A stretch of DNA of 64,000 nt from Rhizobium sp. BK196 (lineage in GTDB: Bacteria; Pseudomonadota; Alphaproteobacteria; Rhizobiales; Rhizobiaceae), in the NCBI RefSeq assembly GCF_014193255.1, contig NZ_JACHZB010000001.1, positions 124,001-188,000 on the forward strand. The letters are read 5' to 3'. The notes beneath the pieces were generated by a model that did no database searches, was not told where the DNA came from, and saw only the letters and a list, made by a program, of their open reading frames with translations. A program made the translations under genes and the position numbers. Shown piece after piece: positions 49,393-63,603 of the stretch (positions are counted from its first letter, which is position 1; each line of letters opens with the position of its first letter).

Positions 49393-49764
49393 TTACCTTG
49401 TCGGGACGGTATGGGCAGTGATCGTATAGCCGAATGGATCGACGAAGGCGAAATAGCGTCCGAACGGACCGTCCTTTGGCGGGAAAGCTATCCGCACGTC
49501 GCGCTCGCACAGATGAGCGTGCAATTCGTCAGCGTCGTCGCAGCCGAACCAGATCGCGATGCCAACCCCGAGCTTCTCCGTCTCGTCAAACTCCGCGATC
49601 GGTGTGCGGACGGCAAATGGGATGGGGTGCGTTTCGAAAACAACCGCGCCCGGAGGAGCTTTTGCAGATGGCGTAAGCCCGACAATCTCTTGATAGAAGC
49701 TCCGTGCGGCCTCCAGATCCTTTGTCTGTATTCCGATGAAATCCGGTCCAATGAGGCGAGGCAT
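49393..49764 (-). CDS. VOC-family protein (glyoxalase-like)
   Basis: A 123-residue vicinal-oxygen-chelate fold protein. DFIGIQTKDLEAARSFYQEI opens the first half, and GIAIWFGCDDADELHAHLCE then RYFAFVDPFGYTITAHTVPT the second. The usual terminal Glu metal ligand is replaced by Thr/Ala, as in some binding-only members. It is divergent from a MarR gene, with palindromes between, and is the likely target of it. Confidence 0.88.
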   Translation of the reverse strand: MPRLIGPDFIGIQTKDLEAARSFYQEIVGLTPSAKAPPGAVVFETHPIPFAVRTPIAEFDETEKLGVGIAIWFGCDDADELHAHLCERDVRIAFPPKDGPFGRYFAFVDPFGYTITAHTVPTR

Positions 49765-56418: not shown

Positions 56419-56501
56419 CGGTCGTTTTCCATCATCAGAGCTGCACTATGGGAAGAACCTAACCGGTAGCCTTGTGGGTGAAAATTCCCTATTGTCGCAC
56501 A

Positions 56502-57380
56502 ATGATTGGGAAGGAATTCACACAAATAGCCAAACCCACACAGATAGATTGGGACGACCTGAGGCATTTCCTGGCGCTGGCGCAGGCGGGCACCTTCCTC
56601 GGCGCGGCAAGGCAGATCGGCGTCGAGCACGCCACGATCAGCCGGCGCGTCACCGCGCTGGAGAAAAATCTCGGCCGCAAGCTCGTCGACCGCCGCGGAC
56701 GGCGCATGGTGCTGACCGCGGACGGCGAGCAGGTTGCAAGACACGCAGCCCTCGTCGCAGAGCAGACGGCGGTGATCGAGCAGCTCGGCCGCGCAAGCGC
56801 CACGGAGACGCGCGGCCATGTGAGGATCAGCGCCCCGCCGGCGCTGTCGAGCGTGCTTCTTGCAAAACCCGTCACCGCCATCCGGCGGGCGCATCCGGGC
56901 GTCGAGATCACGCTGGTGGGCGAAAAGCGCCTCGCCTCGCTGAACCGCCGGGAGGCGGATATCGCGGTGCGGCTGTCGCGCCCGGAAGCCGGCGATTATG
57001 CCATCACCAAGCTCGGAGAAATCGCCTTCCATCTCTATGCGTCGAGGGACTATCTGGAAACCGTGCCGGAGGCGCAGTGGACCTTCATCGGCTATGACGA
57101 GGGCATGAACGCCTCGCCGCAGCAACTGCGCCTCTTCGAACGCGCCGCCGGCCGGCCGATCACCATTCGCTCTTCCGTTCTGGAGTTCCAGGCAGCCGCC
57201 GCAAGGCTTGGCGGCGGTGTGGTGCTGCTGCCGGATTTCGCGGTGTCGGATGGCGACGGGCTTCAGCGTATCGAGGATGAAGCCTCTCTAAGGCGGGAAG
57301 TATGGCTGGTGGTCCACGCCGAGATCAGCGATGTGCCGGCTGTGAGAGTGGTTATGGAGGCGTTGAAGGGGGCGTTTTGA
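56502..57380 (+). CDS. LysR-family regulator
   Basis: A 292-residue LysR protein (DWDDLRHFLALAQAGTFLGA, then RQIGVEHATISRRVTALEKN). The start at ATG 56502 (MIGKEFTQIA) is chosen; a GTG at 56472 is possible. Divergent from the quinone reductase, about 83 bp apart, so it probably responds to a quinone or an electrophile. Sensing domain complete. Confidence 0.92.
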   Translation: MIGKEFTQIAKPTQIDWDDLRHFLALAQAGTFLGAARQIGVEHATISRRVTALEKNLGRKLVDRRGRRMVLTADGEQVARHAALVAEQTAVIEQLGRASATETRGHVRISAPPALSSVLLAKPVTAIRRAHPGVEITLVGEKRLASLNRREADIAVRLSRPEAGDYAITKLGEIAFHLYASRDYLETVPEAQWTFIGYDEGMNASPQQLRLFERAAGRPITIRSSVLEFQAAAARLGGGVVLLPDFAVSDGDGLQRIEDEASLRREVWLVVHAEISDVPAVRVVMEALKGAF

Positions 57381-57469
57381 GATATGATGATGGATAGCCC
57401 GCATCCATGAATCGCTACAGGCCGATTGCCGGAATTGTGCTACGGTAGAACGGCGAAAAGCCTGCGGCA

Positions 57470-57659
57470 GCGCCCGGAGCCCCCTCACCCTAGCCCTGAC
57501 CGGGGTCGAGCCACGGGTTTCGGCCCGTCCTCCGGCCCCCCGCTGAGTAGAGGGGACTCGCCACACGACACTGTCGAGAGTGCGCAAACGGTCGCGGCAT
57601 GCCCCTTCTCCCCAGTGGGGAGAAGGTGCCCGAAGGGCGGATGAGGGGGCTCCGGGCGC
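57470..57659. repeat. RIME-type composite repeat with perfect 18-bp terminal inverted repeats
   Basis: GCGCCCGGAGCCCCCTCA at 57470-57487 is the exact reverse complement of 57642-57659, so a 190-bp block is bounded by perfect inverted repeats. It contains the core CCCCTTCTCCCC..GGGGAGAAGG and TGCCCGAAGGGCGG near the right end, and a degenerate opposite copy on the left. It fills most of the gap between the LysR and MliC-like genes (57381-57717); no other gene there. Confidence 0.8.
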
Positions 57660-57717
57660 AACAACAAGCCGTCAATAATTGATTTCAGACCAGAAGCCGC
57701 TTTCGGAACGCGCCGGA

Positions 57718-58026
57718 CTACTGCACGTGGCAGTTGGTCGAGCGCCCCGGCGCTTTCAGCTGCGCGTCGTTACCCTTGATCCAGAACAGCACGGTCCCAT
57801 CGGTGTAACGCGCGCCCGAACCGGAAAGACCCTGCGGCAGGCGGAAGCTCTGCCCGTCCGTGGTGATGAGCGCCTCATTGGTCGCGGTCAGGAAGCTCGC
57901 GGTGACACCTTTGCCGTCGTCGCAGCGATAGATCACCGCCGCCTTGTCCCCGGCAAATGCCGGCGCAACGTTCATCCAAAGCACCGCACCTGCGAATGCA
58001 AATATATCGCCATTCATCCTGCTCAT
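57718..58026 (-). CDS. MliC-like (c-type lysozyme inhibitor fold) secreted protein
   Basis: A 102-residue exported protein. The signal ends near VAPAFA-GD and the mature part begins VIYRCDDGKGVTASFLTATN, with LPQGLSGSGARYTDGTVLFW in the middle and NC near the end, giving the two-Cys MliC pattern. MliC proteins bind host lysozyme in the periplasm or at the membrane. No lipobox is seen, so this one is probably soluble periplasmic. Start at 58026 with GGGGA upstream; 58017 is possible. Confidence 0.75.
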   Translation of the reverse strand: MSRMNGDIFAFAGAVLWMNVAPAFAGDKAAVIYRCDDGKGVTASFLTATNEALITTDGQSFRLPQGLSGSGARYTDGTVLFWIKGNDAQLKAPGRSTNCHVQ

Positions 58027-58285
58027 GCCCGTCTTCCCCGGTTGGAATGTGCGCAAGGACAGCAGCAGACGAGGCCGCAGCATGACCGATTGAAAAAGAT
58101 GGCACCGGCTGTCGAATTCGCGCCCGCTCGCACGTCATCTTGCCAGAGAGGTCAAGGATAACAGCCATGACGATAACCACGGCGGCCTTCGAATGCCCCT
58201 CGCACTTGCCTTGTTTTCGCCACTACCTTGACATGTGTTATTTACAAAGGCAACCTACTATAGGTAAAGATATGGAGGACAGCCC

Positions 58286-58626: not shown

Positions 58627-59529
58627 TCACGACTGAATCTTCACGCGACTTTGCAAAAGATCCATGATCGCCGCGGCCAGAAAATCAGCAACACGACGAA
58701 TGCGAGCACTTGTGCGCACCTCCTCGTGCATGACCAGCCAGACCGGCATCGGTGGCATGAGATCGATTGGCACGCGCTCCAGCGTCGGAACTTTGTCGGC
58801 CAGCATGACCTGAGCGAACCCGACGCCGAGACCCGCGATCGTCAAGTTCCAATAGACCATTTGATCGTCGCATCTGATTGGAAACATCTCTCTCTGGACA
58901 GGTGTGCCATTGGCCGCGAATACCTTCAGAATGACTTCGCTTCGATCGAAGCCGATGATGTCGTGCTCCAGAAGATCCCGCATCGTGGCGATGCGCCCAC
59001 GCATGTCGAAATATGACCGGGTTCCATAGAGGCCAAGGGGCGCGTCCCCCAGCTTGCGCGCGATCAAGTCGCCATGGGTCGGATCGGCCATGCGAATAGC
59101 GATGTCGGCGTCTCGTCGGAGAAGATTTTGATTTGTGTCCGAAGCGACCAGTTCGATCTGAATGCTCGGCTCAGCCTGTCGAAGTTCGGCCAGGATCGAC
59201 GGTAACCACATATTCGCGACCATGACGGAACTCGTCACGCGTACGGTGCCCGTCAGCTGCTGCGAGCGGCCGAATGCCTTGAGAGCCAAGGCTTGAGCAG
59301 CTTCCCCCATGTTCCTGGCGTCGCTGATGAGCCCGAGTGCGGCTTCCGTCGGCTCGAGCCCACGTGCCGTACGGACGAACAGTGTCACACCGAGGACACC
59401 CTCCAACTCTCGAACATGGCGGCTGAGCGTCGGCTGAGCCACCTTCAAGCGCGACGCCGCCGACGAGAGCGATCCGGATTCTACGACCGCCAGAAATGTT
59501 CGCAGCAAGGTCCAGTCCAGTCGCTCCAT
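58627..59529 (-). CDS. LysR-family regulator of the degradation cluster
   Basis: A 300-residue LysR protein (MERLDWTLLRTFLAVVESGS, then SRLKVAQPTLSRHVRELEGV). The ATG at 59529 is preceded by GGGGAGAG; the frame opens further up to 59628. It is divergent from the hydrolase/CMD/MBL/tautomerase genes starting at 59811, and with the inverted repeat CTATGCAAAACTGTATAG between them it is their likely regulator. Confidence 0.93.
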   Translation of the reverse strand: MERLDWTLLRTFLAVVESGSLSSAASRLKVAQPTLSRHVRELEGVLGVTLFVRTARGLEPTEAALGLISDARNMGEAAQALALKAFGRSQQLTGTVRVTSSVMVANMWLPSILAELRQAEPSIQIELVASDTNQNLLRRDADIAIRMADPTHGDLIARKLGDAPLGLYGTRSYFDMRGRIATMRDLLEHDIIGFDRSEVILKVFAANGTPVQREMFPIRCDDQMVYWNLTIAGLGVGFAQVMLADKVPTLERVPIDLMPPMPVWLVMHEEVRTSARIRRVADFLAAAIMDLLQSRVKIQS

Positions 59530-59584
59530 CGCTCTCCCCAAAACCAATGCTGCGCTGTGATTTCCCGACCTGTCGGCGCACGGG

Positions 59585-59602
59585 CTATGCAAAACTGTAT
59601 AG
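59585..59602. promoter_or_regulatory. possible LysR operator
   Basis: CTATGCAAAACTGTATAG: CTAT-N10-ATAG dyad with a T-N11-A core, 56 bases upstream of the LysR start and 209 bases upstream of the hydrolase gene. The interval 59603-59810 is AT-rich and holds the promoters. Confidence 0.45.
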
Positions 59603-59810
59603 ACCGCATCCATTTTTAGCCAGTCCAAATTGTTCCAGTCCTGTCTAAATTTACGTTAGCTCCATTGATGATCCGTTGAAAATGTTAAGTATTCATCGGG
59701 ATTTCGTGCGCATAGCGGGATTGCAAGAATATACGACAGAGCGGATTCACGATCGATGCTTGCATAAAGATAGTAATTCTGCGCTCCGGCGCGTTGAAAA
59801 GGATGTGAAG

Positions 59811-61007
59811 ATGAAAGTTGTATTCAAAGACGACCATTTCGCATTTGAACTCGTCAGAAACCTCGGCTTTATGTACTATGGAGGATCTGACCTCGGGGAG
59901 ATCGTAGCCACCGGCAGCAAGATCAAGGAAGGAGACTTCGAGAACTGGTTTGACGAATGGGACAAACGCGCCCGGCGCACATTATCCCGTGCCGACGACA
60001 GTTTCTCTAGGGGGCACCTGGTGAGCGCTCGCGAGGCCTATCTGCGCGCATCGACGTATTTCCGGATGGCTGAATTCTACCTCCACGGCAATCCGGATGA
60101 TCCGCGGATCGTTTCGGAATCGCGGGCCTCCCAGAAGGCGTACAGCAGGGCCGCGGATCTCACCGGTCCCACATGGGAACGAGTTGAAATCCCCTATGAG
60201 AACAAGACGCTCCCTGGCTACTTCTACAAGGTGGACAACAGCGGCGAACCGCGGCCCACCATCATTTTTCACGGTGGCTTCGACTCCAGTCTCGAGGAGC
60301 TGTTCTATTATGGCGGTGCGCCCGCCAACAGACGCGGGTTCAACTGCCTCACCTTTGACGGCCCGGGTCAGGGCGCCCCGATGCGTGAACAGAAGCTGCC
60401 GTTCCGGTATGATTGGGAGAAAGTCGTCACTCCAGCCGTTGACTATGCGTTGTCGCGATCTGATGTCGATGGTTCCAAACTCGTCCTTATCGGCATGAGC
60501 CTCGGCGGCTATCTCGCAGCTCGTGCGGCGGCATTTGAACATCGTTTCCGCGCCTGCGTCTTTTTCGACGGGGTCTACGATTTTCATGAGAGCCTGCACA
60601 AGCTATTCCCGGCTGATGCAATCGCGGCTTTCGAAGCGGGCGACGCCGACCGTTGTCAGGAAATCGTGGAAGCAGCCATACCGCACAGCACTCCGCTCCG
60701 TTGGGTTGTTACCCAGGGGACCTGGTCACTTGGCGTAAAGACGGTTGCGGACCTTCTGGAGATCACGAAGCCCTACACCGTCAAGGACGTGATCAAGCAA
60801 ATCAGATCTCCGTGCCTGGTTCTGGAAGCGACGGGGGACATCTTTTTTGTGGGCCAGCCGCAGCGCGTTTTCGACGAGCTCACGGCTCCGAAGAAATTCG
60901 TGGCGTTCACGGAAGAAGATGGAGCGGAAAACCACTGCCAATCCGGCGCCCTTGCGTTCAAGGATCAGGTGGTCTTCGACTGGATCGACGAGACGTTGAA
61001 GTCGTAA
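59811..61007 (+). CDS. alpha/beta hydrolase, pseudooxynicotine-hydrolase/FrsA-like
   Basis: A 398-residue protein with an N-terminal helical part (to about 150) and a hydrolase domain: oxyanion IIFHGGFDSSLEE near residue 158, nucleophile elbow LIGMSLGGYLAA near 227, and catalytic His in ENHCQSGAL near 377. The layout, a helical N-domain then a lipase-like fold, resembles 2,6-dihydroxypseudooxynicotine hydrolase and other C-C bond hydrolases. The start at 59811 has AAAAGGA upstream; the frame opens earlier. Heads the probable degradation operon. Confidence 0.85.
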   Translation: MKVVFKDDHFAFELVRNLGFMYYGGSDLGEIVATGSKIKEGDFENWFDEWDKRARRTLSRADDSFSRGHLVSAREAYLRASTYFRMAEFYLHGNPDDPRIVSESRASQKAYSRAADLTGPTWERVEIPYENKTLPGYFYKVDNSGEPRPTIIFHGGFDSSLEELFYYGGAPANRRGFNCLTFDGPGQGAPMREQKLPFRYDWEKVVTPAVDYALSRSDVDGSKLVLIGMSLGGYLAARAAAFEHRFRACVFFDGVYDFHESLHKLFPADAIAAFEAGDADRCQEIVEAAIPHSTPLRWVVTQGTWSLGVKTVADLLEITKPYTVKDVIKQIRSPCLVLEATGDIFFVGQPQRVFDELTAPKKFVAFTEEDGAENHCQSGALAFKDQVVFDWIDETLKS

Positions 61008-61095
61008 GCCCGTTCAGGTCAGAAGGCGGGCGAAGGGTTTGATGAACCTCTTGCCCGTCCGACGCGGTGAATCAATCAAAAATCAGGAGACACCA

Positions 61096-61689
61096 ATGGA
61101 GCACGTCAACAGCGGGCTGGGCGGACGCTTGCCGCTCCTCGACCCGAAGAACCTCGTCGGCGAGCAGGCAGATCTCTACCAGACCCTGAAATCAAAACTC
61201 GTCACCTGGGCAGAAGAAAGCGGTTTCAAGGGCCAGACACCGAACGGTGAATTGATCGGCCCGTTCAATCCTTACCTCTACAGCACCGGGATCACCCCGG
61301 GTTTCCTGGCCTGGATGGCTGCCGACAAGACCGGCACGACCCTCGACAAGAGGGTTCATGAGGTCGTGATCCTGAGCGTCGGCGCGGTGTGGCAGTCGCC
61401 TTACGAACTCTATGCGCATTCAGCAGTGGCCCGGAAGGCCGGTGTCCCGGAGGCAGCCATCCAAGCCCTGGTTCGTGGGGAGCATTCCGATGAACTCACG
61501 CCCGCAGAACAGGTGGCTCGACGGTTTGCGACCCAACTTGCGAGCGATCGTCGCGTGGACGACGAGCTTTACAAGGAAGCGGAAGATATCTTCGGCACCC
61601 GCGGGTTGGTCGACATGGTGTACCTCGTCGGTCTGTATCTTCTTACCTGCGCCCTGTTGAATACATTCGAAATCCCTGCCCCGGAATAA
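61096..61689 (+). CDS. carboxymuconolactone decarboxylase (CMD)-family protein
   Basis: A 197-residue all-helical protein of the CMD/AhpD superfamily. KRVHEVVILSVGAVWQSPYE then LYAHSAVARKAGVPEAAIQA is the conserved core, with Glu and His in place of the CxxC of AhpD peroxidases, so a lyase-type or carbon-acid role is more likely than peroxidase. CAGGAG precedes the ATG at 61096. 88 bp after the hydrolase gene in the same direction. Confidence 0.85.
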   Translation: MEHVNSGLGGRLPLLDPKNLVGEQADLYQTLKSKLVTWAEESGFKGQTPNGELIGPFNPYLYSTGITPGFLAWMAADKTGTTLDKRVHEVVILSVGAVWQSPYELYAHSAVARKAGVPEAAIQALVRGEHSDELTPAEQVARRFATQLASDRRVDDELYKEAEDIFGTRGLVDMVYLVGLYLLTCALLNTFEIPAPE

Positions 61690-61753
61690 ATCCTCTTCAG
61701 ACAGGCTGCTCAGGTTTTGGCAGCCGCGTGTGTTTCAAGCAACGGAGGCAAGA

Positions 61754-62578
61754 ATGTCAGATACGGTATCAATCTCCCACGCGACCTTCGGCCTGATGGG
61801 CCCGCTAACGCATACATCGACGCGCTCAATGACGATCCATTGCGTGATTTTCCAGGTCGGCGAACGGGTCATCCTGCTCGATACGGGTTTCGGCACGCGC
61901 GAGATGCTCGATCCGAACGGCCTCCTTGGTCAAGATGCGCTTTTCAAGCTGGGCATTGTCATTGACATCAGGCTCACTGCATTGGAGCGCCTCAAGGCAA
62001 GGGGGATCAGACCCCAGCAGGTGAGCGATATCATCCTCACACATCTCGATAATGATCATGCCGGCGGCCTCTACGACTTCCCCGATGCGACAGTGCATCT
62101 CGCAAGCGAAGAGCTCGACGCTTTCGACGGACTGAAGCCAAGAGGACCTTATAAGCCTTACCAGATCTCGCATCGAACGAAATTTCAGACATATGAACCG
62201 TCCGACGAGACGTGGTTCGGGCTGGCTGCCCGCAGCCTCAAACTACCGGGCGTTCTCGACGCGAAGCTCATCCCCCTTCCCGGCCATACCGAGGGCCATT
62301 GCGGCGTCGCTTTCCGCGACGGTCAAAAATGGTGTCTCCACGCAGGCGATGCCTATTTCGACAGGACCATCAACTTCCTCACACCTCCGCCGGGATTGCC
62401 GCTTGAGATCGCTTTTCAGACGGACGCCGGCGACCGCGAGGCGAGCATCGCGAAGCTTAAAACGCTGAGGGAGGAGAATGGGCAGCAGGTCGATATCTTC
62501 TGCACCCATGATCAAAGCGAATATCTGAGCCACACCGCCGGTCGCGGATCTCCCGACGCCCTGTCCATCCTTGGATAG
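61754..62578 (+). CDS. metallo-beta-lactamase-fold hydrolase, lactonase-like
   Basis: A 274-residue MBL protein. The metal motif is ILTHLDNDHAGGLYDFPDAT near residues 93-112, i.e. HxDxDH rather than the usual HxHxDH; a group of lactonase-like proteins has this form. LPGHTEGHCGVAF near 175 and LHAGDAYFDRTI near 195 give the later His and Asp ligands. Probably opens a lactone or ester ring. GGAGG lies before the ATG. 64 bp after the CMD gene. Confidence 0.88.
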   Translation: MSDTVSISHATFGLMGPLTHTSTRSMTIHCVIFQVGERVILLDTGFGTREMLDPNGLLGQDALFKLGIVIDIRLTALERLKARGIRPQQVSDIILTHLDNDHAGGLYDFPDATVHLASEELDAFDGLKPRGPYKPYQISHRTKFQTYEPSDETWFGLAARSLKLPGVLDAKLIPLPGHTEGHCGVAFRDGQKWCLHAGDAYFDRTINFLTPPPGLPLEIAFQTDAGDREASIAKLKTLREENGQQVDIFCTHDQSEYLSHTAGRGSPDALSILG

Positions 62579-62723
62579 GTATAGCCGGCCCCGGCACGGC
62601 GGACCGTTGCGGCAATCTCCCGAGGGGCCCGTTTCTAAACACGATATCTCAGCACAGCCTCGACAGCCGGCATTGCGAGCGCTGTCTCATTATCAATGAC
62701 CGAGCAACAGGAGTAACATCATC

Positions 62724-62936
62724 ATGCCATTCGCAAATTTCAAGGTCCCGGAAGCCGCTCTGACACGCGCTCAAAAGGAGGAGATCGTCCACCGTACCAC
62801 GGCAATGCTTGTGGAATATTTCTCTGAGGCAGCGCGTCCCCACACAATGGTCTTGATCGAGGAAATCAAGGATGGCGGCTACGCCCGCGCTGACGAAGTT
62901 TTCGTGATTCCGGAAGGCTACCGCGCGAAAGATTGA
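62724..62936 (+). CDS. 4-oxalocrotonate tautomerase family protein
   Basis: A 70-residue protein with the catalytic Pro directly after the initiator Met (MPFANFKVPEAALTRAQKEE). The later part, ARPHTMVLIEEIKDGGYARA, is the usual beta-alpha-beta end. Tautomerases of this size interconvert enol and keto acids in aromatic ring-cleavage pathways. Last gene of the probable degradation run, 145 bp after the MBL gene, and possibly under its own signal. Confidence 0.9.
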   Translation: MPFANFKVPEAALTRAQKEEIVHRTTAMLVEYFSEAARPHTMVLIEEIKDGGYARADEVFVIPEGYRAKD

Positions 62937-63524: not shown

Positions 63525-63603
63525 AGCGTTGCTCGGCCCAGGTGCCGGGCTTTCCGCTCCGCCGGATTATTATTCTGCATTTGTTCTTGTGGTGGAGGAA
63601 GGA

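Follow-up and report, generated by a model that had tools for sequence, protein, structure and literature searches.

Among the alpha/beta hydrolases, 2,6-dihydroxypseudooxynicotine (DHPON) hydrolase is described in passages of PMC11069340 as cutting a C-C bond, and passages of PMC11165489 describe AntI as trimming a polyketide via a retro-Claisen step and the Yg1 proteins as trimming hydrolases. A protein sharing their fold is encoded in a five-gene locus of Rhizobium sp. BK196, located in the window, the 64,000-nucleotide stretch analysed here (contig NZ_JACHZB010000001.1, positions 124,001 to 188,000 of the forward strand). A LysR-type regulator gene stands divergent from four co-directional genes, which encode an alpha/beta hydrolase (HYD), a protein of the carboxymuconolactone decarboxylase (CMD) family, a metallo-beta-lactamase (MBL)-fold hydrolase, and a small tautomerase-family protein. 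Open reading frames (ORFs) and Pfam matches agree on this layout, confirming the orientations given in an earlier note that was made from the DNA sequence. We read the locus as an accessory, probably LysR-activated operon for the catabolism or detoxification of a small lactone- or beta-dicarbonyl-type compound, and give this reading a probability of about 0.45.

The five genes and their products

58627..59529, minus strand: LysR-type regulator, 300 aa, ATG at 59529 (longest ORF starts at 59628), with Pfam LysR_substrate and HTH_1
59530..59810: divergent intergenic region between the LysR and HYD genes
59811..61007, plus strand: HYD, FrsA-like or DHPON-hydrolase-like alpha/beta hydrolase, 398 aa, with S230 and H375 conserved and D343 as the likely acid
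61096..61689, plus strand: CMD-family protein, 197 aa, AhpD-like fold without CxxC, with S101, E104, and H108
61754..62578, plus strand: MBL-fold hydrolase, 274 aa, with HxDxDH
62724..62936, plus strand: small tautomerase-family protein, 70 aa, with Pro following Met

The start codons were chosen by comparison with Rhizobium mesosinicum (for LysR, by the ATG and an indel). The likely starts of LysR, HYD, CMD, and MBL lie inside the longest ORFs (four of the five genes), and the tautomerase start is unchanged at 62724; the long form of HYD is ruled out in R. mesosinicum by a stop there. The gaps along the plus strand from HYD to CMD, MBL, and tautomerase are 88, 64, and 145 bp, and Shine-Dalgarno-like sites precede the ATG of CMD (CAGGAGAC), MBL (GGAGGC), and tautomerase (AGGAG). 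All five proteins score above the curated Pfam cut-offs, the regulator with 94.5 and 73.6 bits, so that the divergent LysR-family gene is as claimed in both orientation and domains. From the layout we infer that LysR controls the four genes and that these are co-transcribed.

HYD matches the FrsA-like family (Pfam ID PF06500) with 44.4 bits against a cut-off of 22 and is not the FrsA esterase by the equivalog model NF003460 (48 of 477 bits). The nearest solved structures in the sequence search are SMU_737 (2.9e-26) and DHPON hydrolase (3.7e-23), and a 24-row profile recovers SMU_737 (9.5e-65), DHPON hydrolase (5.9e-50), fungal Yg1 (1e-33), AntI (1.9e-25), and FrsA (5.4e-24). The AlphaFold model (pLDDT 94.2) matches the folds of SMU_737 (Z 48.2), DHPON hydrolase (40.9), AntI (40.8), FrsA (36.6), and Ayg1p (34.9). 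In the 24 aligned rows S230 is present in all, H375 in at least 90%, and position 343 is, by eye, Asp or Glu in most. These matches, which include DHPON hydrolase and AntI, bear out the earlier description of a C-C-hydrolase-like enzyme. Given the cleavage chemistry of DHPON hydrolase and AntI, the trimming by Yg1 proteins, and the shared fold and profile matches, a C-C hydrolase is the favoured but unproven assignment for HYD. A nicotine pathway was considered owing to DHPON hydrolase, looked for within the four-gene run, and is not claimed.

The CMD protein matches PF02627 with 34.1 bits (cut-off 23), and its AlphaFold model (pLDDT 95.9) resembles AhpD-like proteins with Z up to 19.3, compared with Z 4.8 for the small gamma-CMD 2af7. 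Despite the AhpD-like fold, the CxxC redox pair of an AhpD peroxidase is absent: the protein carries S101/E104/H108 where an AhpD-type relative has C/C/H, which agrees with the Glu and His in place of Cys that had been noted before. Of the 29 aligned rows, the window among them, all have H108, and at position 104 there are 25 with E and 4 with A; locus L109, which has stops within its range, was excluded. Two PcaC proteins have E and H in the columns of E104 and H108, which we take to be the catalytic residues of PcaC, so that Glu/His is usual for PcaC and not odd within the superfamily. The window CMD has no match to the PcaC model TIGR02425 at E 1e-3.

The third enzyme belongs to the MBL-fold superfamily (Pfam ID PF00753, 66.4 bits against 22.7). 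Its HxDxDH motif, here THLDNDH, is found in every one of the 11 rows from its own subfamily (the window, the R. mesosinicum locus L080, and nine relatives), and the twelfth row of the alignment, a Hymenobacter MBL of another kind, departs from it. Among solved structures, the enzyme comes closest to an organophosphorus hydrolase (8.6e-10) and a putative hydrolase (6.3e-9). The top five NCBIfam matches are models of N-acyl homoserine lactone (AHL) or quorum-quenching lactonases, but the scores fall far under the equivalog cut-offs of AidB (55.7 of 360 bits), AiiA (38.5 of 375), and AttM (37.9 of 390), and 4-pyridoxolactonase is likewise not indicated (NF047925, 26.1 of 325). We take these AHL lactonases to carry HxHxDH, unlike the HxDxDH seen here. 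The motif and the lactonase-like matches thus support the lactonase-like MBL protein of the earlier note, and the thresholds of the AHL-lactonase models do not. Similarly, the small protein is a member of the tautomerase superfamily (Pfam ID PF01361, 37.9 bits against 22), and the name 4-OT proved too specific, since it scores 27.1 against the 56.9 bits of the 2-hydroxymuconate tautomerase model TIGR00013.

In the proposed mechanism the LysR-type regulator would sense a small molecule and switch on the four-gene operon. The MBL enzyme would open a lactone, and the tautomerase-family protein would shift a double bond between enol and keto forms. The cysteine-free CMD may decarboxylate or isomerise its substrate by acid-base chemistry on Glu and His, not by a redox reaction, and HYD, with its predicted Ser-His-acid triad, would hydrolyse a C-C bond beside a carbonyl (retro-Claisen) or an ester. 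We likewise infer the order of these reactions and every substrate.

Within the divergent region, bases 59530-59649 are identical at 112 of 120 positions in R. mesosinicum. The search for LysR boxes in the divergent region found no T-N11-A dyad with at least 5 of 6 pairs, and the promoter scan no sigma-70-like match there.

PcaC (TIGR02425) has no match anywhere in the window's genome; R. mesosinicum has none above the cut-off (best 52.5 of 155.7 bits), and all 15 other genomes of the genus that were searched do. The genome has no match to the intradiol (PF00775) or LigB-type (PF02900) dioxygenases, VOC-type extradiol and cupin dioxygenases not having been searched for. These negatives fit the earlier claim that no dioxygenase feeds the cluster, limited to the kinds covered. 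The further claim, that the pathway can only begin with a ring-opened or imported compound, is not a necessary conclusion and stands unproven, since the substrate may be non-aromatic and earlier steps could be carried out by enzymes encoded at other places in the genome. At a distance of about 9 kb, an ORF at 49393-49764 on the minus strand has a start that looks, by eye, VOC/glyoxalase-type.

Neighbourhoods of the CMD subfamily in other bacteria

An alignment scan for CMD homologues covered 84,980 species with one genome each; 87 loci were confirmed and the best 80 kept. Profiles of partner families were run over these 80 loci, a partner being called near within 2 kb of CMD, which compares about 309 kb of DNA within 2 kb with about 536 kb beyond. 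The tautomerase profile, seeded outside the 80 loci, gives 10 near matches and no far match. The LysR profile gives 13 near and 2 far when seeded outside (L091, L094, and L098 being weak, with domain E of about 1e-3) and 15 near and 1 far when seeded from the loci. An SMP-30-like beta-propeller lies near CMD in 25 loci, a short CMD in 18, and a 262-aa alpha/beta hydrolase in 12, counts that are descriptive, the three profiles having been seeded from the counted loci. The label short CMD denotes tblastn similarity to CMD, and SMP-30-like a sub-threshold SGL match together with the profile search.

A tight divergent unit of LysR, CMD, and tautomerase is found in seven loci (L134, L135, L142, L143, L146, L158, and L159) that we take, from the organism names, to be actinomycete, with 93-120 bp between the LysR and CMD profile matches and 22-121 bp between CMD and tautomerase. 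The window LysR does not match the LysR of L134, L142, L143, or L146 (blastp, E 1); among LysR proteins beside other CMD homologues it is 30.9% identical to that of L106 over 152 residues and 31.6% to that of L094 over 57. A second recurring arrangement is the row of short CMD, CMD, SMP-30-like propeller, and 262-aa hydrolase, observed in L099, L102, L104, L105, L107, L116, L119, L123, and L130 from unrelated bacteria. The propeller profile matches 2p4o (5.3e-26), PycR1, and EupfF. Pfam assigns no family to the short CMDs of L123 and L092 or to the propellers of L123 and L102, and the L092 propeller has a sub-threshold SGL match only.

HYD homologues occur in five of the 80 CMD loci, corresponding to four genomes: L080, L092, L123, and L102/L103, the last two counted as one genome with the same matches at the same places. 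Besides L080, their identities to HYD are 44% in L092 (broken over several frames), 42% in L123, and 29% in L102/L103, at about 0.8, 2.7, and 2.8 kb from CMD. In L123 (Mycobacterium helveticum) the row reads short CMD, CMD, beta-propeller, alpha/beta hydrolase, third CMD, and HYD. Partial profile matches to HYD in L101, L110, L111, L112, and L149 were dropped from the count; by Pfam the L101 protein is of the Hydrolase_4 and DLH types with FrsA-like under the cut-off, and the other four were excluded by likeness. MBL homologues within 2 kb of CMD are seen in L089 (26%) and L106 (25%), the latter also with a divergent LysR, and on a Hymenobacter plasmid an MBL of another kind adjoins the CMD.

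A different context surrounds CMD in the Hymenobacter-type loci L087, L097, L120, L122, L124, L125, L127, L131, and L154, with a GNAT-type gene nearby in all nine (by Pfam for L087 only) and a catalase-like gene, by eye, in six.

Distribution and history of the gene set

Among the 80 CMD loci, the full five-gene set is found, besides the window, only in R. mesosinicum HU56 (L080), with identities of 93% for LysR, 83% for HYD (86% after start correction), 91% for CMD, 96% for MBL, and 99% for the tautomerase. MBL, and hence the full set, is present in 2 of 148 genomes of the genus, that of the window and G465, which is R. mesosinicum and whose stretch equals L080 over 11,499 bases. Conservation of the genes together across genomes was the check named beforehand, and it came out negative, the whole set being kept in two species only. 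In the order, 397 genomes including the window's were surveyed at cut-offs of E 1e-40 for HYD, 1e-20 for CMD, and 1e-30 for MBL, scoring the best 4, 7, or 6 candidates per genome, so that the counts are lower bounds: HYD in at least 28 genomes, CMD in at least 21, and MBL in at least 10. At these cut-offs no other genome of the 397 has two of the three on one contig, and in the four genomes that carry two of them (G304, G374, G385, and G279) they always lie on different contigs.

The DNA search of plasmids with the whole set, in near and distant modes, found no record covering 80% of the query; among the matches listed, only the tautomerase, part of HYD (two Streptomyces records), flanking genes, or a repeat are matched. 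A 46-70 bp intergenic stretch at 57591-57660 matches Rhizobium and Shinella plasmid records (best 16 of 26) at 88.7-98% and is probably a dispersed rhizobial intergenic repeat.

Purifying selection acts on all five genes, with dN/dS against R. mesosinicum of 0.02-0.16 (LysR 0.06). The dS of HYD is unusually high, 0.99 compared with 0.24-0.37 for the other four genes, and in 150-bp bins the region 59951-61300, covering HYD and the CMD start, has 67-85% identity to R. mesosinicum, with flanks mostly at 88-97%. Together these two observations suggest that the HYD block is an allele exchange with an unseen carrier.

Upstream of the locus, Pfam indicates a lysozyme-inhibitor-like gene, a second LysR, and a quinone-oxidoreductase-like gene. 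Downstream lie a PRC-barrel protein and an ORF starting at 63529 whose Cupin_2 score stays below threshold (25.1 of 27.2 bits), followed by an alpha/beta hydrolase, a NapC/NirT-type cytochrome, and a molybdopterin oxidoreductase. R. mesosinicum is collinear over 58075-67687 at 88% identity and over 56463-58081 at only 79%. The step from 79% to 88% falls at 58075-58081, where the GC content also drops downstream, from 0.62-0.66 in three upstream genes to 0.55-0.59 from LysR through the PRC and cupin genes, which likely marks the edge of an exchanged or acquired block. From the identity step and the GC drop, the block was probably acquired, with its left edge likely at 58075-58081 and its right edge not located.

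Alternative readings and comparison with known systems

Several findings weigh against an operon with one catabolic or detoxifying purpose. The whole set is confined to two genomes of one genus, and the four-gene run holds no transporter, CoA ligase, or oxygenase. Promoter-like sites number 4 against 1.8 in shuffles and terminator-like sites 7 against 5.6, which is near chance, and none is clearly placed. To judge from its title, SMU_737, the nearest structure to HYD, is an uncharacterised protein, and both Pfam and NCBIfam call FrsA an esterase, so that C-C cleavage by HYD is not forced. PycR1 and EupfF, matched by the propellers, are not names of lactonases, and the descriptive nature of the propeller, short-CMD, and hydrolase counts has to be borne in mind. 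Furthermore, no partner family lies within 2 kb of CMD in 43 of the 80 loci, 8 of which have another full-length CMD instead, and this speaks against a fixed pathway. The tautomerase also has relatives in another setting: in three plasmid records their neighbour is an SDR gene, joined in two by a divergent LysR, and neither annotation nor inspection shows a CMD next to them.

The closest of these relatives, on a plasmid of Rhizobium sp. SSA_523, is 97% identical to the window tautomerase (Sinorhizobium plasmid ones are about 80% identical) and has neighbours called LysR and SDR-like from their sequence starts only, rather than CMD; the tautomerase may thus be a late addition to the set. The LysR genes of the SDR-tautomerase units are not close to the window LysR, with 23.8 and 27.1% identity (blastp). 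Given this other context of the tautomerase and the distance of the regulators, the set looks assembled from repeatedly meeting parts, not inherited whole. The recurring CMD neighbourhoods speak for the earlier suggestion that such genes act together, and the loci without partners speak against it. A broader proposal, which we hold less likely than the operon reading, is an undescribed and widespread degradation module built around the cysteine-free CMD subfamily. Its exchangeable parts across many bacterial groups would be a hydrolase, a divergent LysR, a tautomerase of one of two non-orthologous kinds, and either an MBL or a beta-propeller for the lactonase-like step; the Rhizobium version would have HYD, MBL, and the small tautomerase at once. 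The odds of this proposal are lowered by the 43 loci without partners.

The five genes could also be unrelated accessory genes standing side by side, each with its own purpose. We consider such a chance neighbourhood unlikely. In its favour are the lack, in the order survey and at its cut-offs, of any other genome with two of HYD, CMD, and MBL on the same contig, the usual SDR context of the tautomerase, the divergent HYD block with its high dS, and the many CMD loci without partners. On the other side, tautomerase, LysR, hydrolase, and lactonase-like neighbours recur beside CMD in distant bacteria, the gaps are small, and the genes run in one direction. The synteny is also kept in R. mesosinicum, though the flanks are syntenic too.

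More improbable than a chance neighbourhood is a side pathway for plant phenolics (isoflavones or flavonoids), in which HYD would do the work of the alpha/beta hydrolase encoded in the Variovorax ifc cluster and make the C-C cut of a ring-opened flavonoid, the other enzymes trimming the fragments. According to passages of PMC11069340, the daidzein-induced ifc cluster includes cupin genes and, at locus 59470, an alpha/beta hydrolase resembling DHPON hydrolase; ifc homologues occur in bacteria including Bradyrhizobium. The DHPON-hydrolase-like enzyme of that cluster makes a link to plant phenolics possible by analogy, and the best plasmid homologue of HYD is from Variovorax paradoxus (44.7%), the host is a Rhizobium, and the cupin-like ORF lies just downstream. 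Yet the four-gene run shows no FAD monooxygenase, VOC dioxygenase, or other early pathway enzyme, the V. paradoxus homologue has SDR, GntR, and tripartite tricarboxylate transporter genes around it instead of the ifc set, and the main text of PMC11069340 mentions neither CMD nor tautomerase, LysR, or lactamase. Least probable of all is the inactivation of a lactone signal (quorum quenching) by a set built around MBL. The lactonase models heading its NCBIfam matches invite this idea, which we rejected on the model scores, all far under the AidB, AiiA, and AttM cut-offs; the motif also differs from the HxHxDH that we assume for such enzymes, and the other three enzymes would have no evident role.

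The component families are already known, and in the open-licence literature searched we found no description of the combination or of the recurring CMD-centred neighbourhoods. If the operon reading is right, many bacteria use for another purpose a CMD subfamily that tends to be annotated as carboxymuconolactone decarboxylase, and its partner genes in those operons suggest chemistry on lactones or beta-dicarbonyls. The Rhizobium version, being small and by its layout inducible, would then be a convenient place to seek the substrate. If the reading is wrong, the locus is an ordinary accessory gene group.

Compared with known systems, DHPON hydrolase, AntI, and Ayg1p/Wdyg1p share a fold over nearly all of HYD (Z 33.8-40.9) with Ser and His kept, but only about 17-25% identity in structural alignments; for DHPON hydrolase, at Z 40.9 and 25% identity, these figures do not settle the substrate. 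The genes of the nicotine (Arthrobacter) and polyketide systems are not seen in the Rhizobium four-gene run. With PcaC/PcaD of the protocatechuate branch of the beta-ketoadipate pathway, the Rhizobium CMD shares the Glu and His columns of PcaC and a position beside lactone-type hydrolases and a LysR, and it differs in having no TIGR02425 match and an AhpD-like fold instead of the 2af7 type. The CMD-CMD-beta-propeller-alpha/beta hydrolase operons (L123, L099, L105, and L107) similarly combine CMD with hydrolases, L123 adding the 42% HYD homologue, but have a propeller in place of the Rhizobium MBL, an extra short CMD, and no tautomerase match. The actinomycete units share with Rhizobium a divergent LysR followed by a CMD 42-51% identical to that of the window and then a tautomerase; they differ in the longer kind of tautomerase (143 aa in L135, also matching Tautomerase_2, compared with 70 aa in Rhizobium), in LysR proteins that are not orthologous in the four tested, and in having no HYD or MBL match.

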